Origin: Tribonema minus
Taxonomy: Eukaryota; Sar; Xanthophyceae; Tribonematales; Tribonemataceae
DNA: 64,000 nt
Direction: 5' to 3'
NCBI GenBank assembly: GCA_017506865.1
Contig: JAFCMP010000053.1
Span: forward strand, 248,001 to 312,000
Positions 1 through 64,000 of the stretch are shown here, piece by piece; position 1 is the stretch's first letter, and each line of letters begins with the position of its first letter. The notes below the pieces were generated by a model. That model saw only the letters and a program-made list of their open reading frames with translations, was not told the DNA's origin and searched no databases. Position numbers and translations under genes: made by a program.

Positions 1-3000
1 GATTTCAAGTACACGTCGCAGCCGCAGGGGCGCACGTTCACCCTGGACGAGGTATGTACGCATGCTGCTCAGTAACACATGGGAACGAATCAAAGAGTCG
101 TAGAGCTCTAAGTGACAAGGGATGGTCAGCCGCAAGTGCCTTCCACCAATAACCGTGGTCGCCGCTGCAGCAGTCATTGGGTATGTACGCCAGTTGGAGT
201 TCAAGTACACGTCGCAGCCGCAGGGGTGCGCGTTCACCCTGGACGACTCATACACGCATGCCGCGCGCAGTAATACATGCGGTATGTGCGCTAGCTGGAG
301 TTCAAGTACACGGCTGGGGCGCGTGGGAGCACGTGTGCGACGCCGTCATTGCTCAAAGTACCCGGAAGTTGACGTGCCCCCTGCCTGTGTGCCTTGCGCG
401 CCTGTGTGATAGCAGCATCACCTGCTGTGCCACGCGGTCATCCATGGCTGGGGGCGCGTGGGTACCACTTTTGTCAGGGTTAGGACCAATGCTGTAAACT
501 TTGCATGGCAGCAGCGCGGAAGTACCGAGAAGTTGACGTGCCCGGCAGTTGACGCACCAACCCTGTTCCCCCCGCCTGTGTGACAGGACCGTCACCTCCT
601 TTGTCACGCGGTCATCCACGGCTGGGGCGCGTGGGGGCGCGTGCGCGACGCCGTGCGCGACACATATTGTTAAGGTCGCTCCAATTTAACTCAAGGCTCA
701 GAAGTACCTAGAAGTTGACGTGCCTCCTGCCTGTGTGCTTGCGTGCGCGTGCGACAGGACCGCCACCTCCTATGTCACGCGGTCATCCACGGCTGGGGCG
801 CGTGGGGGCGCGTGCGCGACGCCGTGATGCGCACGCCGCGCCTGTCGCTGGACTGCCACCTGCGCAGCCTCTCCACGGAGGCGATAGGGCGCCGCTGTGA
901 GGCGCTCATGCGCGCCGCCGAGAAGGAGCTGCTGGTGAGCGCTGCCACACCATTTTGATAGATCACTTGAAATTCTAATCAAAAATCAAAATTAAAATGT
1001 ATCATAAAAACAGTACTTGGAAAGTATAATGGGGGCGCCAGTCGGCAGTTACGCAGGCTCGCCTGTGGCTGACCCTGACCCTGAGGCGCTCGTGCGCGCC
1101 GCCGAGAGGGAGCTGCTGGTGAGCACTGCCACATCACTGTTGAAGGTTTTTCTGAAAGGGGTGCTAGTTGGCAGTTGCGCGAGCTTGTTGCACACGCCTC
1201 GCACAGCCAGGCCGTTGTGGCTGACCCCAAGCATGCGCGCCGCCGAGAAGGAGCTGCTGGTGAGCGCTGCCACATCACTCAAGTGTCCTTCAATGTACAA
1301 TGGGGGGCACTAGTCGCCAGTTGTGCAGGCTTGTATTAAGCACATCGCGCAGCTTCACGTTGTGCTGACCCGAAGCATGCGCTACGCGAGAAGGAGCTGC
1401 TGTGAGCGCTGCCATGTCACTGTTGAAGTGTGTAGCAAATTGCGCACGCTTGTTGCGAGCACAGCCGCACCGCTGACTCTCTGGCTCCCTTCCTGACCCT
1501 CAGTTGGCATTTCCCCGACCCTGACCCTGTTCCTAACCTAACCCTGCTTGGCGACGCCGTTGCCCGCGCCCCTTGCAGGAGGGGGTGTCGCGGCGGCGCG
1601 CGGAGGCGGCCAGGCGCAACGACCGCCGCGCGGCGCGCGAGGAGGCGGCGCGCATCGAGGTCGCCGAGAAGTCCGCCAAGTGAGTCATCGAGTAGAGTCC
1701 TTGAGATTGAAGTTGGGGTCAAGTGGTGGTTAAAGTTGGGGTAAGTTTCGAGTGAGAGCGTCCGATGCGCCTCGCGCGAGGAGGCGGCTCGCATCGAGGT
1801 CGCCGAGAAGACCGCCAAGTGAGTCCTCAAGTAGAGTTTTAAGTAGAGGCTGAAGTTGTGGTAAGTGTTGAAGTTGGGGTAAGATTTGAGAGACCGGTGC
1901 GCCGCGCGCGAGGAGGCGGCGCGCATCGAGGTCGCCGAGAAGACCGCCAAGCGAGTCCTCCGGCAGAGCCCTCAAATTTGAAGTTGGGGTAAGCTGCGCG
2001 CAAGGACGTGGTGGCGCGCATCACAGTCGCCAATAAGACCGGCGCGGGACTGCTCGTGTAGGGAATGAGAGTTTGAAGTTTGCGCTGCAGCAGCAGGCGG
2101 AGCAGGGCAAGACTTTTCTTGTCTTCAGCGCAATCACCACTCTCTTCTTTGCCACTCTGCGTCACAGATTACGCTCAATTGAAAGCTGTCTGAAATGGTT
2201 GCGGCCCACAAGTTGATGAACATATAACTGCGCTGCTACTGTGTCCACTGCATCAGGCCTCACACGAGTTACGGAGACATGCACTCATGAGCAATCATTC
2301 ATCCGCAGCCATTTGCTCATAGCCGGTGAACTGATTTCTCCGATCATTAGACCTCGCATGAGTTGCGTACGTACCCACCCGACAACAATGAATCACTCGC
2401 AGCAGTTTGCTCATGACTGGTGAACTGATTTCTCTTACCGCCGCGCGCCGCTGCGCCGCAGGCTGGCGGAGGCGGCGCGTTGCGTAGTCATCCCAACAGC
2501 ACTCATGTATCCGCAGCAGTTTGCTGATAGCTGGTGAACTTAATTGTCTCTCCGCTGCGGCGCAGGCTGGCGGAAGCGGAGTCTGCGGCAGCGGAGGCGG
2601 CGCGCAAGGCGGCGGACGCCGCGCACCGGCGCTACCTCCTGGAGCAGCTGATGCAGGTGACGACTCTCCCTCCGTTCACACGATCTGTGGTGTTTGCGGG
2701 ACTCGCCCTCTACTCAGACTCTCTGTGGCAGTTGCGGGCATGTGTCCTAACCCTAACACTAACCCTAACCCATGTGTCGTACGTAGCCCTCACTCTCATT
2801 CCCAACTTGAGCTTTGACCACACCACGGCGGTACCTTCTCGAGCAGCTGATGCGGGCGACTCTCCCGCCATCTCACGCCTCGGACGCAAAACAGCTTGCA
2901 CACACAAGTCTTTTCGACTACATACTGTGGATATGGTGGGCACTGTTTGACTGGTGGCCAATGACTGCAGCACGGCGGCCACAGTCACTGGTGGAAGGCA

Positions 3001-6000
3001 TTCAATTTGACGGCTAACGACACCTTGTCACCTACCTAGAACTCTACGATTTTTTGACGCATTTTACATTCAGGCGCTCCGCAGTGCCCTGCGCACGTGT
3101 CCTTGCTCACGCCGCCGCTCCCCACGGTGGGTGCTCAGGGAACGCTAGGTTTGTGAGGTTGATGCTCTGCGCTCCCGCCGCTCGTTGCTCGGCGTTGTTG
3201 GGGGCATGCGCTGCCTGCTCGAGCGCAGCTGCAATGGCTGGCGAGGCGCGCAGCAGCAGCGACGTGCCGCAACCTGTCGATGCCGCGCCGCAGCAGGGGT
3301 AGGGTGTGTAGAACTGCTATGTACATGCTTCAAAGTACAAGCACACAGTTCATCCATTTTAAGTTATGTGGCGGTTCGAGCACAAGCTCGCATGCTGCGA
3401 CGACGCCTCACACATGCCACTATGTACGTAGCCGCAACCGCATGTGCCGCAATGTACGTAGCCGAGGCTTGCGTGTCATGTGCTGCAGTCTACGGTGCGC
3501 GCTCTGGCATGGACTCCCATCACCGATACCTATTCGCCGCTGACGCCGCGTGCCTCTCGCTTTTACGCCCTCCGCCAGGCCAGGGCGTCACGAGCGGCAT
3601 CATACACAACTCGTATGGAGCGATGCGCCATCGCTCGTCACCTGATCTCTGCTTTCTGTTGCCGCTGCTCCGCCCCTGGTCCGCAGCGGCAGCGCGCCGC
3701 TGCACGCGTCGTCGTGCATGTGTGTGCGGCATGTGCGGTAGGCTGTGCGCGCGCTAACAAGTACATACCTACCCATCGCTGCTGATGCCACGCATGCCCC
3801 TCTCGCTCCCGTGCCCTCTGCCGCACCAGGGCATCACACACCCGGAAGTTGCATGACACGTATCAGGCGTACTCTCGGGACTGTGCGTTTCTTAACGGTC
3901 ACATCTACTGCCTGACGGTTACATTCTGCTTTGTGTGTCTAGTAACGTCCACTTTCATAGGCCCAGCACCCACGGTCTGGCGATGCCTTCCAGCCTCCTC
4001 TGCTGCTTTCGCCAATGCGCGACGCCGCATTTCTTACCCCATCATCGACACCTACCCATTCGCCGCTGACGCCGTGTTTTTCTGGCTCCCATGCCCTCTG
4101 CCGCGCCAGGGCATCACAAACGGCGTCATCCACAACGTCAAGGTCCCCACGGAGGAGGTCCCCATCGCCCCCGCCCGCCCCCCCGCCACCCCCGCCCAGG
4201 CGGCCTCCGCCAAACCCGCCGGCAAGCGGGTGCGTAACCGGGCGACCTGCGCATGCCGTGACCCTTTCTTGACCACTCTGTGTTCCTATCATACAAATTT
4301 GTTGTTTCTTTGCTTGGGTTTTGTAATATGTGCAAGACGGTCGTTGCAAACCACACCACGTGACCGTTATAATGCCCATGGCTGCAGGCCTGTTGAGCGT
4401 GCATACCTTTTTACGCAAACCACACCAAATGACCTTTCTGGAGCCTTTCGAGTCTGCTCAGAGACCGTCTGAAAACACGGGACAGAGGAGACCGGCAGCG
4501 CATTGCATGATGCGCAGCATGCATGAGCGAGCTCAGGCGAAGAGCACGCATCGAATGCCGCCTGATGTGCTGTGCGCTGACGCACGCACCGTGCACCGAG
4601 GGCGGCAACGGTCGTTTCTGGCATGCTGAACACCAAGCTTGAACTGGCATGCTGAACACCAAGCTGCTGCCAGTTGCGTGTGCCGCAGTGAGGTGCTGCC
4701 ACCCGTGCGTGCTTGGCCGTGATCGGCATGCCCCTGAGCGCGAGCGCAAATCTGAGCTTCAAACTACTAATTAGCCAGTTTGTTAACGTCTTCGCATATG
4801 CGCTTCTTTCGTCCCAAGAAGAGATGGGCGCGGCGGCCAGGGTTAGGGTTAGCCCTGCTGAGCATCGCCTGTGTGGTACTTTGTTGCCTGTAGCCGCCAG
4901 TGCGTGCTTGGCTGAGGTGACACGTCTGCACGAACCTTCGGCGGTAGCACGAATCTACGCTGTTTAGCCGTGCCGCTATCGTCTTTGCGTATGTGCTGGT
5001 TACAGCAAAGCAATAGATGAGTGCTGCGGCTGTTGCTTTGCTGAGCATCGCTACGTGGTGATCCGTTGCCCGCAGCGGCGCCGATCGCGTGGCCGTGACC
5101 GCAGCTCTTTGCTGCAGCGCGCGTATCGACGTTTTAGAAGCAGAGCGCTGCTACAAGAGTCGTATGCTGAGCGTTGCGTGTATCATGCTGGTGCGAGGGC
5201 GTTAGTCACACGTGACCTTCTGGCTGCTGCGACCTTCACTGCTGTGCTCATGCTCCAGAGAATCAGAAATACTGATGACAAGGCACGTTATCAATAAACG
5301 ACCGCCATTGTCTGAGAGTCTCAAAAACTGATAAGGCACATGATCGATAAACGACCGCCATTGCCTGCATTGTTGCTGTCACTGCGGCGTACGCGTCGCA
5401 CTGACGCTGAGCACTGGAGCAAGTGTCGTTTGCTGACGTTGCGCGCGCACTGGCCGGTGCCTGCAGGGACGCCAGAAGAACGAGCTGCCTGCGCGCATGC
5501 TGCCGCGCCTCATGCGCATCGTCAACGACATGGGCATGCAGGTATGTATGTTTGTATGTATGTGCATACATTAATCTCAGAGTTTTCGGCATGTGCATGC
5601 TTCAGAAGTGTATGAAAAATACTGTGTATTGTAGATTTCCGAGACTCGTGATTGCGACAGAGGAGGCATTAGGAAGCGGCTCATGCGCATCGTCAACGAC
5701 ATGGGCATGCAGGTATGTGTGCGCATACATTAAATACCTACCCTATGCACGCATGCTTCAGAAGTCTATGACAAAGAAAATGTGGATTGTACGCGGCTCA
5801 TGCGCAGGGTCAACGACATGGGTGTGCAGGTATGTATGTATGCGCGTACATGAGTAACCTCTATGCTTGCTTCAGGAGTGCGTGCGAAAAAATGAATGAT
5901 GTGATGCACATGCCTGGAGGCGTGTAGCTGCAACAGTGAAGGCATTTAGGATCTTTTTGCCTCGTCGCACTCGAGCTGTCTCTTCACCTTGGATGATGGC

Positions 6001-9000
6001 GATGTTCAAGTGCCTTGGTTGATGGTGGTGATCAAGCGCGTTCACACACGCATCGTTGCGTGCCCTGCGTGCGATTGCCGCAGCTCAAGAACGCGATGGA
6101 AATGGTGTGGAGGCGTTCCGTGCGCACTATACGCCCTGCAGTATTTCTGGCCTCTGTTCCACTACCGCGGCTCACGTGTGCTCACACCAGTAACAGCGTT
6201 CTACCTACCTCTGTGTTGGGTGATGACGGCGGTGATCAATCGTTGTTTGTTCTGTACTGTATTTTTGTCGCCTCGGAACCCTTGCATGCGACTGCCGCCG
6301 CAGCTCAAGCACGAGCCAGAAATGGTGGAGGCGTTCCGCGCGCACCACCCTTCCTATGCTCACTCTATTCCTGACCGCTGTTCCCCTGCTGCGGCTCAGG
6401 AACGTGCTCACACAAAACAAGGGTTTGTCAAATCACCTACATCAAATCATGGTGGTGGAGTCTCAGAGCGTTCACACGTACGTCGTCGCGTGCGCTGCGT
6501 GCGGTATCCGCAGCCCAAGAACGTTGCGGAAGTGGCGGAGGCGTTCCGCGCGCACCGCCCGCCCTGCAGTAGTTCTGGCCTCTATTCCACTGCCGCGTCT
6601 CGTACGTGCTCACAACATTGTCTTCGTTCACGCTCCGTGTTGGATCGATGACTGCGGTGATCGAGCGTCTCTTCTTTCTGTCGTTGCCGTTGCAATCCTT
6701 GCGTGCAACTGCCACCGCAGCTCAAGAACGTGACGGAAATGGTGGAGGCGTTCCGCGCGCACCACCCGTCCTTTCAGTGGTTGTAGCCACTATTCCACTG
6801 TTGCGCTTCTCACGTGCCTAGACAGGTAGAGGCATTCCGACTCTGGGTTGAAATGATGACGATACAAATCAAGCGCGTTCACACAGTCGTCGTTGCATTC
6901 GCTGTGTGCCTCTGCGGCAGCTCAAGAACGTGACGGAAATGGTGGAGGCGTTCCGCGCGCACCACCCGTCCTGCTCGCAGCGGCTCGTCACGAGCACCAT
7001 CAAGAACATGTCCGACTTCCAGACGAGGTGAGCGCTGCCTCCACGCAGTCTTCTGAGCACTGACACCACACATAAATAGACAGTGTCCGGCTTCCAGACG
7101 AGGTGAGCGCTGCCTTCCCCTGTCCTCTGAGCACTGGCGCTTTGCAAATAGATCATGTCCGACTTCCAGACGAGGTGAGCGCTGCCTTTACGCAGTCCTG
7201 TGAGCACTGGCGCCTTGCAGAAATTGAGCACATGTGACCCAAAGCACATCCAACCTACCAGATGACTGAACGCTACCTTGCATAAAGTTATCTTGTCCGT
7301 CTTTCCGATAGGTCAGCGCAGGTGTCCACAATCTCCTGCGCCCTGGCACCTTGCAGAAGCAGACACATCCAACTGTTCACGCAGTCCTCTGAGCACACGG
7401 TGCCAGTGCGCAAATACCTGAACCGTCTGCCGCTGCCAGACAAGGTGAGCGCTGCTTTCCACAGCCTCGTGAGCACCAGCATCATGCACAAATAGGGCAT
7501 GTCCGCCTTCCAGATGCGGTGAGCGCTGCCTCCCGCAGCCTTCTGAGCTCTGGCGCTTGTAAGTAAATGTAGCAGATCTGGTTTCCGCATGATTGAGAGC
7601 TGCCTTGCACAAGACCGTGTCAGACTTGCGGTGGAGGCGAGAGTCGGTTTCCTTTGGTAAAAGAATACTCCCATGTGCCATCGATGCCGCCGTCTTCGGT
7701 GCTCACTCGCGACATGTGCGTCCTTTATGCCCGTTGGCATCCCTGAAGGCCGGCCAAACCCCGCTGCTGTCAATTCTTCATGCGAACCCCCCGCCCCCCC
7801 CCCCCCCCCCCCGCGGCATGCGTGCTTTCACATCGCGCACCCGCAGGGTGATGCTTTGCCCCGTGCGCAGCCGGACCTCACGTTTCACTTTGCAACGCAC
7901 ATTCCCTTTCTGACACGTATGGCACCGCTTCTCCTGACTGGTAGAAGGGTACTCCCATGTGCCATCGGGACTGTCGTAATTGGTGCGCACTTCAGACATG
8001 TACGTGCTTCCTGCCTTCCTTAACCCCCCTAGCAGCAGGACAAACCCCACTGTCAATCATTCACATAATTCGGACTCTCTGCCCCCGCGGCATGCGCGCT
8101 TCGTGCCGCGTGACCGCAGGGTGATGCTTCGCCTCGTGCGTAGCCGGACCTCACATTTCACTGCGCGACGCGCACTCCTCCTCTGACCGTAACCGCTGCT
8201 TGTTCTATCACTGTGTAACGCGCACTCCCCTCCTGACGTGCATCACCGCTTCTCCCACTCCCCCCGCGGCGTGCGCCTAACCCTAACCTCAATCCTGACC
8301 CTAACCCTAACCCAGACCCTAACCCTACCCCTGACCCTAACCATACCCCTGACCCTAACCCTACCCCTAACCCTACCCCTGACCCTAACCCTAACCCTAC
8401 CCCTAGGGAGATCCCCGGTGGACGCGGCCAGTCGCGCAAGCGCTGGTGGGTCAAGCCCGAGCACGAGCACTACCTCTTTGAGCCCGTGTGCACGGAGCCG
8501 GACACGCCGGACCGCAGCCCGCAGGCGGCGCCGCAGCAGCAGGTGAGATTGGGTGTCTGTTCTGCAGCATGCAGCGTGTAGTTCTCAGCAGTAGAGCACT
8601 GCTTTGGCGGAGCCTGTGTTGCTGGAGCCGGACGCGCCGGAAAAGAGCCCACCGCCGCCTCCCTCACACGCCGACTCGCTGCTGCTTGTTTCCCGTCCAT
8701 GGTCTGTCTACCTTTCGCCAGACAAATGGTCAGGCGCCCAGCGGCATTGCTCCGGTGCTGATGCTCAACGCGCACAAGTTGCAGCAGCGCCACCTGCGCC
8801 CCCCCCCTCCCCTCACACCCAACCCTCTGCCATCCGCGCTCCACTTTCTTCCAGACGAACGGCCAGGCGCCCAACGGCATTGCAGAATTCGCCGCGCAGG
8901 GCGACGCCCAAGCGTCCTTTGCCAAGCGGCCGTCGGTATCCACAACGCTCCCTGCTGCTGCTGCTGCGGCGACGGCGGCGGCGCCGGGGGAGGAGGGCGC

Positions 9001-12000
9001 AGCTGTTGGCGTCAAGCGCGAGAGCCCTGATGCCGCCGCGGCCGTGAACGGCGGCGGCGCGGCTGCAGGTACATATGTCGCTGCGCGCGCTGTGCATGCG
9101 ATGAAGTGCTGCGGCAGTTTTGCTTTGATGCGGGTTGGGAGATCTGCGCGGCTACATTGCTAGAGATGTGTCGGGAGGTCTGCAGCCTGTGTGTCTGTTT
9201 CTCGCGCAATGTGCCCTTGTCACTGTGTCACGGTCAGACAGCCGCTTTCGCCGCGTCCTCGTTCGATGCAAATAGCTTTGCGTCATCGCGCCAGCGGAAT
9301 TTTGCAGTGCTGACGTGCCCCCCCCCCCCATCCCTACCCCCCATGCTGCTGCCGCCCGCAGGCGCTGCCGCTGCGGAGCCGCCCGCGAAGAGGCGGCGCA
9401 AGCACATCGCGCTCACCGGCTACGTCCTGTACCAGCGCGCGACGCTCAAGGAGACCAGAGCCGAGCTGCCGCGCGGCACCGCGCCGGAGGTCGTGGAGGC
9501 GCGCTCGCAGTACAAGTGGGAGAGCCTGACGCAGGCGCAGCGCGACGCGTTTGAGGCGCAGGCGACGGCCACGCTCGAAGCCCGGAAGGCGGTACGTATG
9601 TGTGCTTGTGGGTAGAGTGTGTTGACGATCATTTCATGGCGCTGCATGTGTGGAGTATAATCAGGCGCGCTCGCAGTACAAGTGGGAGAGCCTGACGCAG
9701 GCGCAGCGCGACGCGTTTGAGGCGCAGGCGACGGCTGCGCTCGAGGCGCGGAAGGCGGTACGTATGCTTGCGGTAGGGTGTGCTGATGAGAATTTCATGG
9801 CGCTGCATGTGTGGAGTATAGTTAGGCGCGCTCGCAGACAAGTGGGAGGGACTGACGCAGGCGCAGCGTGACGCGTTCAAGGCGCAGGCGACGGCCACGC
9901 TGGAGGCGCGCAACCGGTACGTGTGCTCGCCTGTAGGGGGTAGCTGTGTGTATAAGAGGGATTGCGTGGCGCCGATAGTGTAGAGTACCACGAGGCGTCC
10001 TCTCAGTACAGGAGGGAGAGCCTGACGCAGGCGCAAAAGGATGCGTTTGAGGTGCAGGCAACGGCCACAGTCGAGGCGCGCAAGGCGGTGCGTACGTGTG
10101 CTTGCGGGCAGGGGGTAAGGGTGTGTCTGAGAGGGATTGCATGGCGCTGCAGATGTGTTTGAGGCGCAGCAACTGCCACGCTCAAGCCCACAAGGCGGTA
10201 TGTTTGCTTGCGGGCAGGGGGTGAGGGTGTTCTGAAGCGGAGGGCGCATAGGGATCGCATGGCAGTTGAAGTATAAGTTACAATTTAATTCGGTCCAGTG
10301 GAGTGAACGCCTTCGGAGGCGCACGCGACGGCCGCGCTTGAGGCGCTGAAGGCAGTACGTTTCCATGAGACAAGGAGCACGCTCGTGTCGCACTGCGGTA
10401 TGTTTGTGTGCCCAGCGTGGGGCTCTGTATTGAACTGGAGTGGCGGGGCAGGGGTGCGTTGGTGGGTGTGCCGTGCATGGCTTGAAGTACAAAGTCAACT
10501 TACTTGGGACGGCGCAGAGGGTGCCCGAGGCACAGGCCACCGCCTTGAGCCCGAGAATAGGTATACCTGCCTACAGTACTGGGTAGGGGTGCTATCTGCA
10601 TACGTGTCAACGCTCACGCATCACCTCGCTTGAATTACAAGCCTCCATCCAACCAGCAAGACTTTTTTCTAGAAGATTTGAGTGTCCAAGCCCTTGCGCC
10701 TTGAAGTGCAGCACTTGCTCTTCCTGTGCAACATGCATCTGCTACACTTATGTGTCAAACCTGTGCTTCGGTCTTCGTGTAACGAACTGTTGTTCTGTGT
10801 CTGTGCTGTCGGACATCCGGGCTTCATGTCCATGAAAATTGATGCTCACTCTGCGCGTTGCTTGAATTACAAGAACCCAAACTGAGAGACGTTGCTGAAG
10901 TGTCTGTTGCCTTGCGCTCTGGAATGCAAGCAAGCATCTGCCAACATGTGTCACACTTCACGAGTTATTCCTACATGTCTTCATAACTTTGTTATGTGTC
11001 TGTGCTGTCATGCGCGTGTAGACCCGCAGAGGCGCCGCATACTCTGCTCACCTGTGCATCGAGTATCTGCTGGTGTGTCACACTTCACGAGTCCTGCCTA
11101 CATTTTTTCACGCTTCTACTTGTTGTGTGTCTGTGCCGTCGTGCACGTGCAGGCCCGCAGCAAGACTCACCCTAACCCTAAGAGATTTGAGCGTCTACAT
11201 AAGCCCTTGCGCCTTGAAGTGCAGCGTTCGCTCTACCTGTGCAGCACGCATACACTAGACTCACGTGTCAATGCCTTCGTCACACGCTATCATTATGTGT
11301 CTGTGCTATCTTGCACGCGCAGGCCCGCAGAGGCGCCGCTGCCACGAAGGCTGCGGCCAGAGGCCATCACGGCGCCAATCCGGGCGCCGACGGCGATGGC
11401 CACATCCCGTTTGAGATGGACGAGTGAGTGCCACAGCACGTATAATACCCATTGAAGTAATCCGCTTAGAGTGGCCACTGTCCATGAGCATCAAGTCACC
11501 TGCTTGTCACGAGGTATGTGTAGATTTCTGGTGCAACGTCGACACTAGTCATATGGGCTATTTCCGTGCCCTTAATCGAAAACGCAGGTTACGACAACGA
11601 CTCGTTGCTTGCAGTCAGAAGCTAGGAGTAGTGACAAGCCTGGCATGAAAAGTGAGGCACGGGGCATGTCGATGAGTGCCAGGTGGGCGGAGTCTGGCCT
11701 CCACAGTGGCGCTAACCCTTACCCTAATCTAACCATAATCCTGCGCTGGTTTGAAAGGTGGGATCATGATGCCAATACGTGTGACGCAGCGGGGCTCTAT
11801 TACACTGGGGAGCGTGCCAGGGCACTGATCATGTGCTCCAAGAGCTTTGCGCATTCGAGATGCAGTTCTGTGAGGTCGACGAGGGCCACGGATTAGGTTT
11901 AGGGCTATTAATGCTAATTTTCACTGCAATACTTGCTAACCTGACCCCAACCCTGAGGCAAAGCCGCTGCGCAGGCTTGCCCTCAGGCCATCCACCGTCT

Positions 12001-16581: not shown

Positions 16582-16738
16582 GTCTACAATTACAGGTTGC
16601 TGTTGCTGTTCTGTCTGTTTGTTTCTGGTTTATTCTGCTTTTTTCACAGCATGTGAACTTGAGGAAACTTCAGCGCGTGACTGTCCCATATTTGCGCTGT
16701 GTAACCCATCTACCAACGAGAGCAAACATCGCTTCATC
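16582..16738. promoter_or_regulatory. Probable bidirectional promoter between plastid-protein and ABCG genes
   Basis: Only about 157 bp separate the divergent start codons, so both core promoters and 5' leaders must fit here. It is relatively AT-rich (TGTTGCTGTTCTGTCTGTTTG, TTTATTCTGCTTTTTTCAC), in contrast to the GC-rich exons. No clear TATA box is visible. The call rests on spacing alone. Confidence 0.45.
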
Positions 16739-38890: not shown

Positions 38891-38899
38891 AAGTCACAC

Positions 38900-47873: not shown

Positions 47874-47894
47874 CACAGCGGCGGTGGCGGCGGC

Positions 47895-48063
47895 GGTGCA
47901 TGACGGTGTTCATCCACGAGCGCGCGCCGCGCGGGCTGCGGAACGCTGCCGCCGTTTGCGGCAGCAGCGGTGACGCTCCACAGGGGGACGCAATCCCCGC
48001 CCACGGCGCTGACGCGAGTGACGGCACTGATGCTGTTGATGGCGCCGGCAGCTGACACCGCGG
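47895..48063 (+). repeat. Tandem copy of the DOT1-like terminal exon including its stop codon
   Basis: Repeats 47714-47880 with a period of about 182 bp: ACGGTGTTCATCCACGAGCG, GTGACGCTCCACAGGGGGAC, GCTGTTGATGGCGCCGGCAG, CTGACAC. It lies just after the functional TGA and is presumably in the 3' UTR or flank. Confidence 0.92.
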
Positions 48064-52948: not shown

Positions 52949-54698
52949 TTCTTCAAGATGTTTGGAACTTCAAGCGGGGGGCGGTGGGGGGAGCCTTTCC
53001 CCATCAGGCCACGAGGGGTGGTAATACAATCCAACTGACGGCTTGCTTGAAAGCTTGAGCAAAGGTCGAGGTCCACAATGAACATTGACTTGTCCGCCAA
53101 ACAAATCAGCGCGATGCACGCACGCAAAGGGTAGATGCGAATATGTGATGACCCAGGTAACCCACATGCGTGCCTCCACTCTACTACCTCCTGGCGTGCG
53201 CGCCCTGATTGGTTTTGTTCGTTTCGTTCTGTGTGTGACACAGCATGGCCACGGCTATCAACATGAGTACACCGACACGTGAGAAGGCCTGCGTACATCC
53301 AGTGCACCTGTTCGTCAGTGCATCTGTTCAAAGGTTGTACGGACAGCATGCTGGCATTCATGTGACTCGGAGCATCCCACTTGCCATTGAGCATGCAGCG
53401 GGAACGGCCCGGGGGGTCATGACCGAACAGAGAACCAAATCTGTGAACAAACGCTGGCAGCAGCACAAACTTTGGAAGTATGCGAGAGTTGACCTCTGAG
53501 TGTGCATTGTGCATATGCTCAAGACTCTTTTGCCTCCAGCAGCTGCATGCTTGATGCCGCTGAGGCGCTTGCAGCCGGCTCTCATCTCCACAAACCTGAG
53601 CACTGACACAGCCCTGAGCACTGCTGCCCGCAGAGTGCCCACCAGTCCTGCAGGCCGGTCAACACCGCCTCTGCCGCACCGCGCGTTTGCAGCAGCAGCG
53701 GAGCACTGAGCCAAGCGCACGTACTTTTTATTAATTCTCGCTCAGGGCGCGAAAAAGCCCAGATGATTGGCATCTAGCTGTAAGGAATCTACATGTCGTA
53801 TGACAGTCTGAAAGTGTCGCAACGACAACCACTCAAACGCCGCCGCCGCCAAATGGCATCTCGGGGTCCTCCCCTACGTCCTCCTCCATGTGCCCCCCCC
53901 CCCTGGATTCTGCCATGTGTGTCATGACACGGCCAGAGTACGCCATGTGGAGCGCTGCCGACAGTGCCGAGCGTAAGCGCGCCAGGGCGATGCCCTTGAG
54001 AGCTTTAGGGCGCGCTCCTCCGGGCACTGACATCCTGCTGGCATACTCCGTCGCCACAGCCTCCGAAACGTACTTGACACACCATGTTGCTGAGAGTTGC
54101 GTCTCTGCGCGCTGGCCATGCACAGCCCGGGCAGACAACATCAGCGCCACAGCAGGAAGCACATGTCGCCGATGCTGCCGTTGAACCCAGGCGCCGATTC
54201 ACTGCCAGCATGAGGGGCCTGCCTGCGGTGACAGTTCATTGCAGCCTCCAAGGCGCGATCGCGAGCACTGATGCGCCACACGTACCGGGGCGGATGCGCC
54301 TGGCGGGTGCGCCTGGCTGCTGCCGTCTGTCACGCACCCCGGCCATGCAGGTAGCTGCTTGCTGACGTGCGCTTGACTGTTGTGATGCCTTGGCCATGCG
54401 GCGCTGCACACTGCGCACAGTTCTGCACTCAAACTGCGTGCGGGTGCAGTTGAAGCTGAAGTTGCCCCCCACGCTGAGTGCAATGGCTGACGCCGCTGCC
54501 AGTGCCGCCAGCGCCTTGCTAGCCGCGCGAGCCTGCTGATGTGGCCATTCAGTGCGGCAGCAGCGGCCGCAGCGGCGCACGCCACCGGTATGGCCTTGCG
54601 CGCTGGCCGTAAGCCCGAGCACCGAGCTTGCAGCACACGAATGGAGATGCAGCAGTAGCACCCGCTACCAGAACGCCCCCATGCTCTCACTGCAGCAT
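52949..54698. other. Intergenic region, no confident gene
   Basis: Lies between the start of the LRR-like gene and the end of the SDR-like gene. It contains a family B repeat at 53728-53925. A minus-strand open frame at 53833-54162 reads protein-like in part (WCVKYVSEAVATEYASRM, ALKGIALARLRSALS), but it overlaps the repeat and has no domain assignment. No other signal was found. Confidence 0.5.
53728..53925 (+). repeat. Dispersed repeat family B, copy 2
   Basis: Starts AATTCTCGCTCAGGGCGCG then AAAAAGCCCAGATG and runs through AATCTACATGTCGTATGACA, GTCTGAAAGTG, GCCAAATGGCATCT and a poly-C tract to CTGGATTCTGCCATGTG. It parallels 28163-28372. Confidence 0.8.
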
Positions 54699-57600
54699 TC
54701 AGCTGGCGCCGCTGCTGCCGGCGCCGTCTGCGGAGGCCGCAGCAGCAGCGGCTACGGCCGCTGCAGCGCGGAACCTCATAATTGCTTCGTCCACCGCTGT
54801 GTCCGCAGCAGCTGCAGCGGTCTCAGTGGCTGCGGCAGCGGCGGCGGCATTGGCAGCAGCAGCAGCAGCTGATGGCACGGGCGCGGCAGCAGCGGCGGCA
54901 ACAGGCTCAGCGGCGGCGGGCTCGGAGGCAGCAGCAGCAGCAGCAGCCATGCCTGAAGCAGCAGCTTCGCCGCTGCCACGAGGAAGTGCAGGGCTTTCAA
55001 CATGTGCCGATGCCCCGGTAGCAGCATCATATGCCCCGGTGTCAGCATCATATGCTGTTGGCGGCGACATCGGCGGCACGGCGGAGGCGGCGGCGGCAGC
55101 GCTGTCAGCGTCGGCTTTGGCGGCAGCGGCAGACACGGCCGCTTGCACGCAGGCTTCCGCCGCCGCCGCTGCAGCGACCGCACCGGCAAAGGCATCGGTG
55201 GGGGAAACTGGCAGCACCGCCGCTGTGCTTGCAGCCTCGGCGCTGTCAGCTGGCGGCGAGGGCAAGCCGGTGATGACGGCAGCAGCGGCAGAAGCGGCGG
55301 GCGGCAGCGGCGGCTCGGCGGCGGCGGCAGCGGCAACTGATTCTCGCCGCGCAGCTTGCGCCACGGCGATGGCGGCGGCGACGGCGGACGACGGCTGCCG
55401 CGTTGCATCGTACTCAAAGGCAGCAGCGTCGGCATAGTCGTCGGCAGCGGCGGCGCTGGAGGCGGCAGCGCGCAGCGGCGCTGCGTGCGCGGTTGCTGTG
55501 TCCAGCGGCGCAGCCTGCGCCGCTGCAACGGCGTGCGCGGCGGCGGCGGATCGCTGCTGTCCCTGCTCACCGCTGCTGCCAGCCCGCACAGCATCCGCGG
55601 CGACTGCGGCACTTGAGGCAGCAGCTGGCGGCGGCGACTGACGCGCAGCAGTGCTGACAGCGTCTGGCCACTCGGGCTGCGCTGCTGCGGTGGTACCTGC
55701 GCCGTTTGAGCCAAGTGCGTGCTCCTCCTCGTAGCTGCTGTCCTGACAAGCACCGGCATGGGTACTGCCGCTGGCGGCAGCAGCTGGCAGCGGCGGCGTG
55801 GCATCGGGCATGGCACCAGCAGCAGCTGCACCAACGGCGCCCGTCGCGGCAGCAGCAGGAGCTGCATCAACGCCAGCGGCAGCGCCAGCGCCGCCAACTG
55901 CATCGCCGCCGCCAGCGACGGCGGGAGCAGCGGAGCTGTCAGCAGCAGCGGCGGCGGCGGCGGCAGCGCGGAAGGCGCGCTCGGGCGCGAGCACGCGCAG
56001 CAGCGCGAGCCAGCGCCACTGCGGCTGCATGACCACCACCTCCGCGCGGCGCCGCGCGACGCCCTGCAGCAGGCGGCGCGCCACGTACTCCGCGCTCATT
56101 GGGCCGCCGAACCACTCCGCCAGGGCCCCCCGCCCCCCCCCCGCGCCGCCGCCGCCGCCGCCGGCAGAAGCATCCCCCGCCGCCGCTGCTGCCGCCGCGC
56201 CGCCGCTGCCGCGCTGCCGCGACAGGCGCGCGGGCGTGCCGTCGCCCATGAGCGCATTCGCGCCGAGGTTCGTCGCGGTGAGGCCGGGGTAGACGACCGT
56301 AACCGTGACGCCGTGCGCCGCCACCTCCGCGCGCAGCGCGTCGAAGTAGCCGCGCACCGCGTGCTTGGCGGCGGCGTTGGAGGCGCGCCGCGCCGGCGCC
56401 GCGACGCCGTGCGCGCCGCTCACCGCCGCCACCGCGCCGCCGCCGCGCCGCAGCATCGCCGGCAGCGCCGCGCGCGTGAGCGCGGCGGCGCCGAGGAAGC
56501 TCGCGTCCATGACCTCGCGGTCGGTTGAAGTTGAGGTTTCGAGGACGGGCGCGCGGCTCGAGACGCCCGCGCAGTGTATGAGGACGTCGATGGGGCGGCC
56601 GAGGCGCTCCTCCGCCGCCTGCGCGAGGTCACGGACAGCGGGGGGGACTGTGAGCTAGGACACTTGAGCGTGGTGACGTTGCGAAAGCCCGGCGTGAGCT
56701 GCGAAGGCGAAGCACTCACACAGCACTGCATCGTCACATGCGCCGGTCGTGAAAATCATTCGTCTTGCGCGTGCAACGCGGCGCGGTGCTGCGCGCGCGC
56801 GCGCGTGCAGTGCGGTCATACTCGAAGTAACCACTTCACAACCGAAACACGGCGACTCACCTCCATGGACACGTACGCCATGCGCTCATGCGTTGGGAGC
56901 ATGTGGCAGTGACATGCTCATTGCCGTTAGCACGCTTGACGGTTACGGCAGCTACAGTTGCCGGTACACAGACCACAATACATTCGCTTCTACAGTAGCA
57001 GCACACGACCGACATCGGTCTTCTGCTGCATTGGTCACCTTCATGTCTACCTCTGTTGGTGTGGAGCAACAGGCTAGTGCACAGCAGCTCTCAACATTGC
57101 AACAATGTTTGAATACCGCTGCCCGCGCCGCGACCCGGCGCTGATGTTGTTGCGCTGCGCACAAGACTTGAAAGCCCACATTTACGGGACCAGCGACGAT
57201 GCTGGTTGAGAGCATGCGTTCTTCGTACCCAATCTTGTCTATGTTTTGGGATCATGAGACAAATGGTCTACATATCTTGCACGGTACTGCAATAATGAAC
57301 CGTTCTGCAGCTTATATGGTGTACTTCAAAGTACATGTCTTGGAAAAGAATTGGGGAGAATCAAGGTTGCACGCAGAAGTCTTTTTGATACTGTGGGTAT
57401 GATGGTACTGTTTGACTCGTGGCCAATTGCTGCAGCAGCGGCGACCACGGTCATTGGTGGAAGGCATTCAATCTGACAGCTAAGCACACCTTACTACCTG
57501 GAGCTCTACAATCTTTTGATTCGTTTTCATTTCACTTCGATCGACCGTTGTGCAAACGCAGCAAGCGCGCTGCGGGTGAGAGCGTGCGGCGCGGCAGCTG

Positions 57601-59197
57601 ACCTTGACGGCTTCGGGCGCAAACTCCGTGTCCCTCACGTCCATCGGGAACAGGTACGCCACCTGCGGGCGACAAGGGCGGAGCGCACGTATGCATCGGC
57701 GCTTGTACCATGCTTGAACTGTGCTTGCACTGATCTTGACCCATTCATGTACTGCACAGAAATCGAGGGGGGGCGGCCAGCGGGGCGTATACTGCCCGCA
57801 CGCCGGGCACAGAACTCCGTATTACAGCGCAGCGACGCGACAGTTTCAGGGCGTTCGTGTAAAAGCCGTTGTGTGCGTGCACGCTTTGCCAGCTGACAGA
57901 GCGAAGACAGGCGCACGCAGCGGCGCCGTACTGCGGCGCAGCGATTTGTGCTTACTTGAGTGCAGCACATGACGCTTGTCCACGCATGGCCAGCCTACAG
58001 CGTGACCACCACCGCATGCCGCTCGCGGAATCACTGTGCTGCAGCAGCCCCGCAGTGGTCCTGCACAGCTGCCAGGCACCGACAGGCACTGGCAGTTACA
58101 CAGGGGTTGCGCAACTGCCAGACGCACGTCAGCAGCAGCCAGCCCCTCAACAACAGAGCCCTATAGGCTATTTCAACACGGAGTGATGGCGGTGGCAGCG
58201 CGCATGCATGCACCCAAAACACAAAGCGCGAGCGGCCATGCATGGTACAGTATGTCGACCTCAAATGCTTGGTCTACCAGCAGTGACCGCGAAAATCTGA
58301 CAGCGGTACTCATGTACCGTCCAACCGCATCCACGCCCTGAAAAAGCCTGCCACTTGAGCCAACCACCATCATATGCTCACACATGAATCGATGCATGCC
58401 TAGCCTCCAATTCAAATGTTGAAATTATCATTGAAGTTACCCACCTCGGCGGGGCGCCAGCCCTCCAGGAACGCTCGCGCGCGCGTGTACCGCCGCGCGC
58501 GCTTCCACGCCGCCACGCACGCCCTCTGCACGCGCGCCAGCTCCTCCAGGTTCCTGCCGGTTAGCAGCACGTGCGCACCCGCAGCTGCCGCCTGTATCGC
58601 AACCTGCTTCCCTATCCCCGAGCTCGCGCCTGTTACCCATACTGCTGTGTCGTCGAATGCGCGCCGCACGGCGCGCGGCGGGCCTCGCGTCGGCAGCGGA
58701 GTCTCATCGAAGGTTTTATAGTCGATTCTGCGCGTCTGCGAGACCGTGAGCTTGCCGTCAGGGGAGATAAATGTGGGATCTGTGATGGAATCCTCGTCCT
58801 CGTCGCCGAAGTAGTCGTCGTCGAGCATGCCAGCAGCGAGCATGGAGTTGACGGCATCAGCGATGGTTCCAGTAGCAGCAGAGGCGTCTTCCTGGGAAGC
58901 TCGCCGCTGCATGTTAATCAAGATCTGCTCCAGCGCAGCAAAGTCGCCAGTGTCGGAGTCATCGGCGTCATCAGATGGCATGGCATGCAAACTGCTTGCG
59001 ACGGCAGATTGCCGCACGCTCTGGTCGTAGCAGCAGCAGCGCCCTACATATACACGCGTCGCGCAATGCCATTGGGCACGGTGGAGCGAGGGCAGCAGCG
59101 CTGGCCGGAGCCCTTCCGCACAATACAACGCTGCTGCCCAGGTGGTGCATGCCAAAATTCTTCGTCTGGGGACGAGCCCAGTCGCGTGCATCCTCAT
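54699..59197 (-). CDS. SDR-fold protein with degenerate catalytic residues and Ala-rich C-terminal tail
   Basis: Exons 58445-59197, 57603-57662, 54699-56618, joined at phase 0; about 910 residues. The N-terminal ~185 residues hold a Cys/Arg-rich leader and an acidic region (DDDYFGDEDEDS). The Rossmann nucleotide-binding motif TGASSGIG is near residue 189, then LLTGRN, then FPMDVRD, then VLIHCAG (NNAG position), as in short-chain dehydrogenase/reductases. At the catalytic positions the protein has DASFLG (Asn to Ser), VSGAHG (second Ser to Gly) and SNAAAKHA (Tyr to Asn); only Lys remains. After YPGLTATNLG and LALLRVLAPERAF (about residue 482), some 425 residues are almost pure Ala/Pro/Ser with acidic residues. 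Cofactor binding is plausible but normal SDR catalysis is not. The tail may be genuine, or an intron may remove it. Confidence 0.8.
57388..57535 (+). repeat. Dispersed repeat family A, copy 5
   Basis: Direct copy from TACTGTGGGTATGATGG to GATTCGTTTTCATTTC, in the second intron of the SDR-like gene (opposite strand to that gene). Shared words include TGACTCGTGGCCAATTGCTG and GCAGCGGCGACCACGGTCAT. Confidence 0.88.
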
Positions 59198-59452
59198 GGA
59201 AAGTTTTCAAGGTAAAGGAAGCAACACGTTCCACTTCTTCAACATCAAACTTCAAGACCCCGAGAATCGCGCTTTGAGGTTGCATACATCAGTGAAACAG
59301 TCTAGTCGCGGTGTGCCTGACCTGCCGCGAGGACGGTGCTCGTGGTGGTCAGGATGACGAGACGGCGATAGCAGTGCTCCAGAATAGGCGCGATCAGCAC
59401 TGGTCAACCGTGCCGCTGAGCGTACTTTGACAGAAACTTACACTCAGGGCCG
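59198..59452. promoter_or_regulatory. Probable bidirectional promoter between SDR-like and ankyrin genes
   Basis: 255 bp between divergent start codons. It contains an inverted TTCAAGGTAAAG/CTTCAAGACC-type motif but no obvious TATA box. The assignment rests on gene arrangement. Confidence 0.4.
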
Positions 59453-60454
59453 ATGATGATGGAAGCCGGCGAGTCAAATGGTTACGACGCCTTCTCCGAG
59501 GTAGACAATTTCAATTTGGGAGCGTTCATGGGAGGCCATGACGTTGCTGTCAACGGCGCTGATGCGGGTGGCGCAGGCGCTTTGCCATTTGGAGGTCAGT
59601 CAAAACGTCGCATCACTGCCTGGCAAGTTCTGTTGCACCTTTCTAGCGCCGACCCCTGATGTGCCTCAGCGCGATTCAGCTGCAGCATGAGGCGCTTGCT
59701 ACTTTTGTCTGCGGCAACGCGCTCTGCCGCAAGTGTTGACAGGTCTTGTCAACCGGCACCGCACATCGCGAAATGCATTCTAAATTCTGGTTTCGCAGGT
59801 TTTCGTGCGCATCGTTGCGCGCTTGGTACATGGAAGTTGACAATGACGGCAGCATCAATGCCGATGGCTGTCTTCCAAAGCCGCTTGTGTAAAACCACGC
59901 TGCGCCTGCGTGTGTCGCTTTTGAACGTCAGTGAACTTCAACTTCAGTGTCCGGTCTGTGCATCTCCGATGAGGAAATCGGCACCTGGCCATGCTCCAAA
60001 CTACTCCCACCATGCTTGTCACCATCTTGACTATGCATGGGTGCTCAGATCAGCTGGTGGCGCGCCTACATGGCTGGGAAAGCCCCCAAACTCAATTCCC
60101 GCCCAACCCCCCTATTTCGCCTGTGGCTGTGCAGAAAACAGCATGCAAGCGCTGCTCTCGGATGGCTTCCAGGTCCTCAGTAGTGTCACATTTGGCGCCA
60201 CGGGCGAGATCATCAGCGAGCGTGGCACCGCCCACCACGGCAGCAGCAACGGCGCCGGCGGCGGCGGCGGCGCAGCGGCGGCGGCGGCAGCGGCGGGCAA
60301 GGGCAGCCGACCCCCAAGCGGTTGCACTGCCGCCGCCCACCCACGCAGGGCATCTCATTCATCGCCGCCGCTGCCGCCTGACAACAGCTCAGGACTGGTG
60401 ATAGGCATGCGGCACAGCGCGTCGGTGCCGCACCTGCACCTGCCGCCGACCGCA

Positions 60455-60488
<34 letters not shown>

Positions 60489-63400
60489 AAGCGGCGGCGG
60501 CGGCGGCAGGGGGCCGCGGTACAAGCCCCGCGCTGAATGGGCTCGGCGGCGGCGGCGTGGAGCGCAGGGCAGCGGAGAGCGCAGATGTGGCGGCGCAGAT
60601 GCGGCGCTGCACGACGGCGCCCGGCGCGCTGCACCACGAGACGGACGCGCTGCCGCCGCAGCAGCACAAGCGACGCCGCTCAAGCGACGGCAGCGACGCG
60701 GACGCCGCGGGCTCTCTCATTCTCATGGGCAATGGGGGTGGCGCTGCCGCCGCCGCCGCGCGCGGCGGCATGGGCTGCGCCGGCGGCAGCAGCGGCAGCC
60801 TCAGCAGCAGCGGCGGCATGATGGATGCGCCGTCGCCCCTGCACGGCGCGATGCCGCCGCCACAGTCGACCATGCCGTCCCCGGGTCTGTACCCGCAGCA
60901 CGGCCCCGGGGGGAGCAGAGTTGCAGGCCAGCGGCCCATACGCCCACGCATCAGCCTGCGCGTTGCGTCGGGGACGGCCGGCGGCGGCAGTGGCGGAGCA
61001 GCAGCAGCAGCAGCGGCGGCGAATGCGGCGCCGAAGCTGCTGCCCGCGCAGCAGCAGGCGCAGAAACCCGCGGTGACGGTGGCAGTGGGGGGTGCGATGA
61101 ACGGCGTGCAGCACTCGCAGTCGCAGCAGCTGCAGCCGCCGCTCTTCAAGCGGCCCACGATCTCGCTCAGCGTGCGCAGGCACGGCGGCGGCAGCAACGG
61201 CAGCACCCCTAGCAGTACCAGCAGCGGGCGGAGCTCCTCTAACGGCTTCGGGAACAGCGGCGGTGGCGGCGGCGCTGCGCAGTGCAGCGCGACCAGCTGG
61301 AGCCCGCCGCGCTCGCGTCCGTCGCCCGCTGGCAGCAGCAGCGGCGGCGGCGCGGCGGCGGCGGTGCTGGCGGACGCGGCGCTCGTGGCGCGGCTGGCGG
61401 CATTCCAGGACGGCGCGCCACGCGTCGCCATCGCGGCGAACGCCGCGGCGCTGGCGGCGGCTGGCCACGCGTCGCTCGTGCGCGACCGCTGCGCGCACGG
61501 CGAGCGCGTGGCGCCGAGCCGCGCGGCGCTGCCGCTGGCGGCGCTCGGCGGCGGCGGCAGCGGCGGCGGCGGCGTGGCGCTGCTGGACGCGCTGTACGAC
61601 GCGGCGGGCGCGCGCGGCGGGAGCGGCGTGCTGACACTGCAGGCGGCGGTGGCGCGCGGCGACGTCGCGGCGGCGCGCTGGGCACTAGAGCGCTGCGACC
61701 GCGCGGCGGCGGCGGCGGCAGGCGTCGGGTGCGTGATCGCGGCCGCGGCGCGCGGCGACGGCGCCATGCTGCAGGTGCGTGCGCGGCGCAGCAGGGGCGT
61801 GTCGAGATGCCGCTGGCATGTCTAAGGCGGTGTTGCGGGTGACAGCGGCCCCCGAAACGCGAACGACATGCATCCTTGTTTCAACAGTACCTCTGTAGAA
61901 GTACCAGACCCGACGGCTCACATGCGCTGGTCTCTACCGCGCGACAGCAAGGTGCTGACTCACTCACGCCCGCCTTCGCTGTATTTAGCGCGCTCCCAGC
62001 GCTGCCTGCACCGCTCACTATCACATCCGCACAGCTCACCGCCGCGCTATCTTCACAGGCTCAGCTAAACCGCGCCCCACCTACTTTTTACCGCACGCGG
62101 CTGCTGCCCTGCAGCGGCCCGCGTCCGCCTGCGTGCGTCCGCGCTGCTCACTGCCACCGTTTGCGCGGCTCCGCACTGAGTTGCTGCTTGCTGCCACGCG
62201 CTGTGCTGATGGCTGCTGCTGCGCGCGCAGTGGCTCGCATCATCCGGCGTGAGCACGCCCGCGGTGCCCAGGGCGCTGGAGGAGGCTGCGAAGGGCGGGC
62301 ACGTCGCCGCGGTGCACTGGCTGGTCACGCAGGTACGTACAGTAGGTATGATGCTTCAATAGTCGGAGCTGGTGATGCTCAGGTCGCGCAGGGGACAGGC
62401 ACGTCGCCGCGGTGCACTGGCTGGTCTCGCAGGTGCGCACGTACAGTAGGTATGATGCCTCAATATTTGGAGCTGATGATGCTCAGCTCGCGAAGGTGGC
62501 GGGCACGTCGCCGCGGTGCACTGGCTGGTCACGCAGGTGCGCAAGGTATTGTGCCGCAGCAGTCGGAGTCAGTGATGCTCAATTCGTGAAGGGCGGGCAC
62601 GTCGCTGCTGTGCACTGGCTGGTCACACAGGTATGTACGGTATTGTGCTGCAGCAGTCGGAGTCGGTGATGCGCAGCTCGGCGCACTGGCTGGTCACGCA
62701 GGTGCGGTATTGTGCTGCAGCAGTCGGAGTCGGTGATGCTCAGCTTGTGAAGGGCGGGCACGTCGCCGCGGCAGTACGTATGATGAGGTATGTACAGTAG
62801 GTACGATGCCTCAGCAGTCTGGTGTCAGCGTGTCAGCCCGTGGCCTGTATTGGCCTGGCAGTGCAGGGGGGGGGGGGGGGGGGGGGGACGATCAACAGGT
62901 ATCAGGTATGGCACGGCAGGAGGGCCGACGAGCGTTTTTATCAGCGCTCAGCGACCTGCAGCTTCCCGCCAGTGCGACAGCGCAGCGGCGCGCAGCAAGG
63001 CGTGCCCCTGCACCCCCTCTGACTGCAATGCCAGGGGTTTGAGCGCCTCTGCCCGCCCATACCCTTTGCTCACCGCCCAGATCGTCACGCATCCCGCTCG
63101 CCACATGGGCACGCCAACAGCACAGCGCCACCGCTCACGTGCCCCCCCCCCCCCCCCCCCTCAACCTCCCGCACGTCTGCGCAATCCTCACCTTATCCCC
63201 CCTGCTCCTCTGATCCCTCATGTCTCGTCCCCTTGTCACCCTCTCACTCGCCTTCTAATCCACCCCCCTCTCACTCCCCTTCCAATCCCTCCCCGTCGCC
63301 CCGCCCCCCCCCATGCCCCCAATCGCAGGGCTGCATCCCCGACGCCGCCGCCATCAGCGCCGCCGCCGCCGCCGGCCACACAGCCGTTGTCCACAAGCTG

Positions 63401-63613
63401 CTGCTGCTCGCGGGCCCCACAGCAGCGCTCTCCCTCGGCAGCGCGGCGCTCGCGGCGGCGTGCGGCGCAGGGCAGCTGGAGCTCGCGCGCTGGCTGTGGG
63501 GCGTCGGCGGCGCGGCGCTGGATGCTGCGTCAGCTCTCAATGCCGCGCTCGGCCGCGGCCAGTGGGAGGCCGCGCGGTTCCTGCTGCTGCGCGCGGGGGA
63601 GGCGCTGGCGTAG
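59453..63613 (+). CDS. Ala/Gly/Ser-rich protein with C-terminal ankyrin repeats
   Basis: Exons 59453-59594, 60135-61774, 62231-62332, 63329-63613 (TAG); phases close, 722 residues. The N-terminus is acidic (AGESNGYDAFSEVDNFNLG). Residues ~75-500 are low-complexity Ala/Gly/Ser/Gln with a KRRRSS basic patch that could be a nuclear localisation signal. The last ~150 residues form ankyrin-like helices: LQAAVARGDVAAARWALE, ALEEAAKGGHVAAVHWLVTQ, ISAAAAAGHTAVVHKLLLLA, ALAAACGAGQLELARWLWG, ALNAALGRGQWEAARFLLLR. Ankyrin repeats bind partner proteins; the partner is unknown. The first ATG of three adjacent Met codons was taken as start. Copies of the last unit continue downstream, so the true 3' end could be later if the TAG were spliced out, but there is no evidence for that. 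Confidence 0.8.
60455..60510 (+). repeat. GCG-rich trinucleotide repeat coding poly-Ala
   Basis: GCGGCGGCGGCGGCG units within exon 2 of the ankyrin gene, encoding about 13 Ala, GAA, then 6 more Ala. It is probably prone to length variation. Confidence 0.85.
62390..62770 (+). repeat. Donor-side copies of an ankyrin exon
   Basis: Copies near 62398, 62500, 62592 and 62683, plus a fragment near 62752, of GGGCACGTCGCCGCGGTGCA, CTGGCTGGTCACGCAG|GT, with the intron lead-out (AGTAGGTATGATGCCTCA, GGAGTCGGTGATGCTCAG). Spacing is about 85-105 bp. Most keep a GT donor after CAG. Confidence 0.93.
62867..62887 (+). repeat. Poly-G tract
   Basis: A run of about 20 G in the last intron of the ankyrin gene. 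A long poly-C run is nearby at 63140-63160. Confidence 0.9.
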
Positions 63614-64000
63614 CGCAGCGGGGGGCGGCGGCGGCGGAGGCGGCGAGGCGCGGCGGCAGCAGTGCTCGATGTTGCGTCAGCGCTCAGCGCTGCGCTCCGC
63701 CGCGGCCAGTGGGAGGCCGCGCGCTTCCTGCTGCTACGCGCGAGGAGGCGCTGGCGTAGTGCAGTGGGGGCGGCGGCGGCGGAGGCGCACAACGCGGTAG
63801 CAGCAGTGCTCAACGCCGTGTCAGCGCTCAACGCCGCGCTCGACCGCGGCCAGCGGGAGGCCGCGCGCTTCCTGTTGCTGCGCGGACGGGAGGCGCTGGC
63901 GTAGCGCAGCGGGGGCGGCGGCGGCAGAGGCGCGGAACGCGGTGGCAGCAGTGCTCGACGCTGCGGCAGGGCTCAGCAACGCGTGTGCTGCTGCGCGCGA
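63614..64000 (+). repeat. Tandem copies of the terminal ankyrin unit with stop codons
   Basis: Units of about 145-150 bp: CGTCAGCGCTCA, GCGCTCCGCCGCGGCCAGTG, GGAGGCCGCGCGCTTCCTGC, GAGGCGCTGGCGTAG. The first two downstream copies end in the same GGCGTAG as the functional exon at 63613; the third is cut by the window edge. The copies are in different frames relative to one another. Confidence 0.92.

Follow-up and report, generated by a model that had tools for sequence, protein, structure and literature searches.

Partial exon copies in Tribonema minus introns keep acceptors upstream and donors downstream of their intact parent exons

Introns in a 64,000-nucleotide window of the genome of the yellow-green alga Tribonema minus (Xanthophyceae; the window is the whole stretch of DNA analysed here) contain partial copies of the exons that they adjoin, and these copies follow a two-sided rule, in that copies upstream of an exon carry an acceptor only and copies downstream carry a donor only. 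By comparing each exon of an ABCG transporter gene and a DOT1-like methyltransferase gene, together with 80 bases of flank, with its two adjoining introns, we found 49 same-strand exon-derived copies. Upstream copies comprised 22 with the acceptor only and 3 with neither site, and downstream copies 21 with the donor only and 3 with neither site, one of which, a 17-base match at DOT1 exon 1, was judged to be chance. A splice junction thus lies on the expected side, beside the parent exon, in 43/49 copies (neither in 6/49), and among the 49 no upstream copy held a donor, no downstream copy held an acceptor and none was inverted. The most probable explanation is neutral tandem duplication at exon edges that has been filtered by selection, with splice sites being chosen by their context.

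Gene models and exon-edge arrays

The exons of the main census were defined from protein homology and splice sites. For the ABCG gene, the exon chain was derived from the Trinity-derived proteins P0003 and P0005 together with splice sites, and its last 601 residues are present unchanged within the published T. minus model P0130; the difference between the two is confined to the part before residue DHDED, where P0130 has a short intron. The gene and its copies are as follows.

16739-35412, + strand: ABCG transporter gene, 14 exon pieces from homology and splice sites
16739-17027, + strand: E1, with an in-frame TAA that P0130 avoids with the short intron
18063-18183, 20615-20726, 22055-22208, + strand: E2, E3, E4
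23943-24123, 25153-25193, 26367-26443, + strand: E5, E6, E7
26794-26991, 28030-28137, 28909-28996, + strand: E8, E9, E10
29594-29711, 31775-31973, 32991-33145, 35322-35412, + strand: E11, E12, E13, E14
18278-18340, + strand: downstream copy of the 3' end of E2 with the donor region, donor reading GC
20427-20614, + strand: upstream array of E3, acceptor and 10 exon bases, 66-base unit
20816-21201, + strand: downstream array of E3, 3' part and donor, 127-base unit, 3 copies
21693-21848, + strand: upstream copy of E4, acceptor and 59 exon bases
22300-22402, + strand: downstream copy of E4, 97 exon bases and donor
23435-23754, + strand: two upstream copies of the E5 5' part, one scored with acceptor
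24212-24261, + strand: downstream copy of the E5 3' part, alignment ending just before the donor
25014-25049, + strand: upstream copy of E6 (41 bases), acceptor and 17 exon bases
25916-26284, + strand: four upstream copies of E7 (77 bases), acceptor and 48-53 exon bases
29147-29215, + strand: downstream copy of the 3' end of E10 with the donor region, donor reading CT
31132-31610, + strand: two upstream copies of E12, acceptor and 85 and 135 exon bases
32116-32244, + strand: downstream copy of E12, 79 exon bases and donor

In the DOT1-like gene, the translation of exons 1-4 is exactly the first 164 residues of the published T. minus protein P0121. Both borders of exon 5 were inferred from array units; the last 124 residues of P0121 align to 45907-46278 at 99%, and the published exon 5 begins farther upstream, overruns the inferred donor and terminates within the downstream array.

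40077-46175, + strand: DOT1-like methyltransferase gene (Pfam PF08123, E 2.5e-10, and P0121)
40077-40254, 41347-41459, 43262-43382, 44715-44794, 45970-46175, + strand: DOT1-like exons 1-5
40529-41255, + strand: six upstream copies of exon 2, four with acceptor and two with neither site
41549-42136, + strand: five downstream copies of exon 2, four scored with donor
42503-43085, + strand: six scored upstream acceptor copies of exon 3, with more TRF units up to 43285
43474-43949, + strand: three downstream donor copies of exon 3
44936-45186, + strand: three downstream donor copies of exon 4
45612-45864, + strand: two upstream acceptor copies of exon 5
46241-46689, + strand: four downstream donor copies of exon 5

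For ten further exons, whose borders were inferred purely from the sequence, copies were tallied separately from the two genes; Pfam support among them is limited to the SLIDE and HMG exons. The exon at 62231-62332 had been called ankyrin in the preliminary description, a name that stays unconfirmed (the open reading frame at 59687-61825 had no Pfam match), while the downstream set described for this exon is indeed present.

758-934, + strand: SLIDE-domain exon (Pfam PF09111, E 1.8e-9), borders inferred from splice sites and set at 756-932 in copy scoring
351-462, 578-655, + strand: upstream SLIDE copies with acceptor; 309-349, + strand, with neither site
1082-1136, 1232-1277, 1376-1414, + strand: downstream SLIDE donor copies
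1579-1679, + strand: exon, borders inferred; downstream donor copies at 1759-1893, 1892-1990, 1993-2080
4110-4229, + strand: exon, borders inferred; upstream acceptor copies at 3516-3610, 3767-3841
5467-5541, + strand: exon, borders inferred; downstream donor copies at 5676-5721, 5792-5842
6921-7027, + strand: exon, borders inferred; 5 upstream acceptor copies (6031-6772), 3 scored downstream donor copies (7150-7552)
9362-9591, + strand: HMG-box exon (Pfam PF09011, E 1.3e-4, 23.1 bits, cut-off 22.4)
reaching 10360, + strand: downstream donor array of the HMG exon, unit of about 166, 3 copies scored
11323-11423, + strand: exon, borders inferred; upstream acceptor copies at 10992-11038, 11123-11160
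62231-62332, + strand: exon, borders inferred; downstream donor copies scored at 62490-62819

The two-sided rule in the wider set

Including the ten exons with inferred borders, the set grew to 95 matches (34 upstream with acceptor, 41 downstream with donor, 14 with neither site and 6 inverted), and again no wrong-side match was found among the 95. Five of the inverted matches lie at a GC-rich exon at 63329 and one near the HMG exon. The preliminary description had put forward the two-sided rule and held that frequent donors in upstream copies would speak against it; classification of the exon copies found none, and the rule stands. Sets on both sides occur at ABCG E3, E4, E5 and E12, at DOT1 exons 2, 3 and 5, at the SLIDE exon and at exon 6921-7027. 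Two of the exon groups that had been described as two-sided are so only in part: at the HMG exon the downstream set is convincing, but the single 24-base upstream match (counted within the 34) was judged low-complexity, and of four DOT1-like exons, exons 2, 3 and 5 have both sets, whereas exon 4 has the downstream set only. ABCG E1, E8, E9, E11, E13 and E14 had zero copies at the census threshold.

The exon parts of the copies are 88.3% identical to their parent and the intron parts 83.6%, as is expected of unconstrained copies of a constrained parent. The repeats are also local, with only 5/143 direct pairs within the window being separated by >5 kb. Arrays do not occur everywhere, since local direct repeats cover only 0-5% of the GC-rich stretch 48001-60000, which holds an FNIP-repeat open reading frame and a short-chain dehydrogenase open reading frame on the minus strand.

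Splice-site strength and predicted cost of misuse

Splice-site profiles drew on 25 donors and 25 acceptors within the window; eight of each are at inferred borders, and one of these acceptors (SLIDE) was placed two bases early, without AG. Median donor scores were 8.05 for real sites, 7.3 for copies and -1.05 for intron GT (real versus copy p = 0.11), and median acceptor scores were 6.95, 7.09 and -1.57 for intron AG (real versus copy p = 0.52), with the intron GT/AG background including the arrays themselves. Despite medians like those of real sites, a quarter of the copy sites are weak (lower quartiles of 0.87 for copy versus 7.19 for real donors, and 1.9 versus 3.86 for acceptors). For most copies, strength alone therefore does not separate the true site from the copy, and the cell has to rely on context when it selects among them. 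If a copy site were used and the intervening DNA retained, a stop or frameshift is predicted in 39/44 copies, and the remaining 5/44 are predicted to be harmless.

The AG is kept in 23/24 copy acceptors, which could point to arrays that are selected for a function in intron length, splicing timing or regulation. We consider such selection very unlikely: the GT is kept in 17/21 copy donors but lost in 4/21, and the intron parts are 16% diverged, both of which fit drift. Protein-level matches to the C544 paralogue of the ABCG gene also place some of its extra partial repeats at exons different from those that bear them in the window gene, which again speaks against a selected function and suggests that the repeats may have had independent origins.

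Copies in published models, transcripts and other loci

The published ABCG model P0130 joins intact exons only and leaves out every ABCG copy, and the published DOT1 model P0121 is likewise free of copies in its exons 2-4. In P0003, from a close relative, E3 is joined directly to E4 and E4 to E5, and the frame switches at E7-E8. The published model P0132, which we assigned to the C544 paralogue by protein identity, has two inserts, of 32 and 18 residues, that consist of exon-edge copies. These inserts, along with the often strong copy sites and the few copies that would be harmless if used, favor the idea that copies are spliced in as mini-exons or alternative sites and yield protein variants. 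We regard this as improbable. Both inserts are missing from four Trinity isoforms that belong to a single transcript gene (P0131, P0133, P0134 and P0005), with P0131 being 635/639 identical to P0132 outside them; P0130 is also free of such inserts, most copies would break the frame if used, and P0132 is perhaps a prediction error. The P0132 inserts could result from a model error, from occasional use of the copies, or from strain differences in the arrays.

Gene predictors may be misled by such copies, as with P0121, which overruns the inferred exon 5 donor, and P0132 with its two exon-edge inserts.

Of four DOT1-family loci from elsewhere in the genome that were compared (L001-L004), two have a copy on the side that the rule predicts. 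At L002, the matched exon has an acceptor-type copy upstream of it. At L004, a donor-type copy derives from a different exon end, whose parent exon was judged by eye, and there is also a repeat within a coding frame; no repeats were seen at L001. Tandem arrays are difficult to assemble, and an assembly or sequencing artefact might therefore be suspected, but we find this scarcely credible: the 49 copies differ from their parent by 3-29%, mostly far beyond read error, and form ordered partial units, and two loci on another contig have like copies.

Excess of repeats at splice junctions

Repeat families cross splice junctions more often than random placement predicts, in tests that cover two genes with good annotation from a single window, itself selected for its repeats. 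When units of the observed lengths were placed at random, exactly one junction was crossed by 16% (ABCG) and 13% (DOT1) of them, and 76% and 83%, respectively, were wholly intronic. The observed families crossing one junction were 10/16 in ABCG and 7/7 in DOT1 (11/17 and 7/7 crossing a junction without the low-complexity filter), and rotating all repeats along the gene gave p = 0.0006 for ABCG (0.003 at E 1e-6) and p = 0.005-0.007 for DOT1. Counted by junctions touched, ABCG has 10/26 (p = 0.014-0.018; 9/26 with p = 0.04 at E 1e-6) and DOT1 7/9 (p = 0.16-0.19), an excess that is weaker than by families.

Copies of a constrained parent exon stay detectable for longer, which biases detection towards exon edges. 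With exons masked during family detection, 15/19 families were related to a junction (ABCG 8/11, binomial p = 9e-5; DOT1 7/8, p = 6e-6) versus 13-18% expected, and 14/20 without the low-complexity filter (ABCG 7/12, p = 0.002; DOT1 7/8, p = 6e-6). A stricter rotation of the masked repeats gave 5/11 touching an exon site in ABCG versus ~2.1 expected (p = 0.02, or 0.05 with wider tolerance) and 4/8 in DOT1 versus ~2.3 expected (p = 0.12, or 0.19 with wider tolerance); restricted to pairs of at least 85% identity, this rotation gave nothing significant. TRF lists eight arrays of period at least 30 within the two genes, six of them assigned to a junction. Family detection overlooked one or more intron-only pairs listed by TRF, including that at 44361-44424, a perfect 32-base tandem pair lying entirely within an intron; its perfect identity indicates that recent intron-only duplication occurs too. 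Overall, the junction excess in the two genes is likely to be genuine, and such abundance at exon edges would be unusual.

What caused the excess may be read in two ways, either as a trace of duplications that selection has filtered or as a property of the edges themselves. Duplications could be actively born at exon edges, which would be fragile or recombination-prone and perhaps coupled to transcription or splicing, and from which new copies would be pushed into the intron as on a conveyor belt. The exon-masked families homologous to a junction, with and without the filter, and the six junction-assigned TRF arrays point in this direction, as do copies closer to the exon being more parent-like (65 versus 43 pairs in 23 arrays, permutation p = 0.05) and the observation that no scored family holds >69% of its exon (P = 0.002 in a post hoc test). 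Against it, the identity gradient is weak at that p value, as is the masked rotation test, and intron-only duplications such as 44361-44424 exist. A further duplication in the window lies at 47720-48093, where a 182-base unit is repeated in tandem at ~88-92% identity. Its first copy contains the end of the open reading frame 47106-47873, by eye like the DOT1 C-terminal part, and its second copy lies past the stop; this duplication is thus at an apparent stop-codon edge, not a splice edge, as a mere selection filter would permit. On balance, we think it unlikely that active birthplaces explain the arrays. The broader proposition, that edges are preferred birthplaces, that introns are ordered fossils of their flanking exons and that the spliceosome routinely ignores equally strong decoys, is one that we would advance only tentatively and with some doubt.

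A proposed model of tandem duplication at exon edges

Neutral duplication filtered by selection, which we prefer, would operate through local tandem duplications with units of ~60-300 bases that repeatedly span splice junctions and that, we infer, arise through slippage or unequal exchange. A duplication across an acceptor would yield the intron end and exon start twice in succession, with only the second running on through the remaining exon; a duplication across a donor would yield the mirror image, in which the downstream copy consists of the exon end and the donor. The intact exon would retain the junction that continues into the remaining exon, while the copies would remain in the intron, drift neutrally and make it longer. 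The side rule is then a geometric outcome of tandem duplication across one junction and of the survival of the intact exon. The preliminary description had tied the rule to no named system; the rule itself holds, but the geometry of ordinary tandem duplication suffices for it. Whole-exon copies are expected to be only 11% of junction-touching units, and their presence in 0/19 families (P = 0.10) is therefore unsurprising.

Because the message is unchanged when the exon's own sites are used, copies may persist within the intron. Splice choice would be made by context, with an acceptor being paired at exon distance with its own donor, as in exon definition. Exon definition was put forward in the preliminary description as the way in which the copies could be ignored, and it would fit short exons in long introns. 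Indirect support comes from the similar medians of copy and real sites, from the predicted frame damage in 39/44 copies and from the intact exon chain of P0130.

Relation to known repeat and intron systems

Minisatellite or VNTR arrays in introns are built of head-to-tail repeats, each tens to hundreds of bases long, whose identity decays. The Tribonema units are likewise head-to-tail and in one orientation, with no inverted copies among the 49, but differ from minisatellites in that they take in the edge of an exon, frequently along with a good splice site. Introners are dispersed repetitive intron copies across many genes; the likeness lies in repetitive sequence making up intron DNA, whereas, within the window, the Tribonema repeats are local to one exon, as the small number of distant pairs illustrates. 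Whole-exon tandem duplication, as in mutually exclusive exons, needs an acceptor and a donor in each copy, a combination found in 0/49 of the Tribonema copies.

Beyond one potato case, no like arrays in Tribonema or elsewhere were found in the literature searched, which excluded most subscription papers. In the potato RdRp gene, a tandem duplication spanning an intron-exon boundary gave rise to a new intron and an exon segment (PMC4974935), and this is the nearest precedent. The potato case is one event in one gene that made a new intron; the Tribonema arrays are many, involve both exon ends and, as far as seen, remain within existing introns, which they make longer. In the AGGT tandem genomic duplication model, the duplication of exon sequence gives rise to a new intron (PMC3443670). 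The unit in that model is wholly exonic, with the new intron placed between its two copies. The resemblance is that local tandem duplication remodels introns with the message unaltered, and the difference is that the Tribonema copies lie within existing introns, that 43/49 carry intron sequence past the junction and that no new intron is needed.

If the pattern is genome-wide, it would constitute a route for intron lengthening that leaves the message untouched. It would also provide a natural experiment on splice-site choice, in which true exons have beside them many good acceptors that lack a donor and donors that lack an acceptor.

Breakpoints and short motifs

Breakpoints of the two arrays of one exon were compared by eye, and any coincidence between them was not convincing. 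The 7-mer TTGAAGT/ACTTCAA occurs 55 times in the window and was considered as a breakpoint signal; it is enriched in the window, yet only 21/55 occurrences fall within local repeats (26% of the window), and it was rejected as such a signal. TACTTCAA, counted on either strand, has 28 occurrences in the window versus 1.03 expected. Telomere-like (CCCTAA)n tracts occur outside the set exons at 2747, 4843, 8277-8405, 11172, 13894, 18211 and 18336-18386, and are possible traces of break repair.
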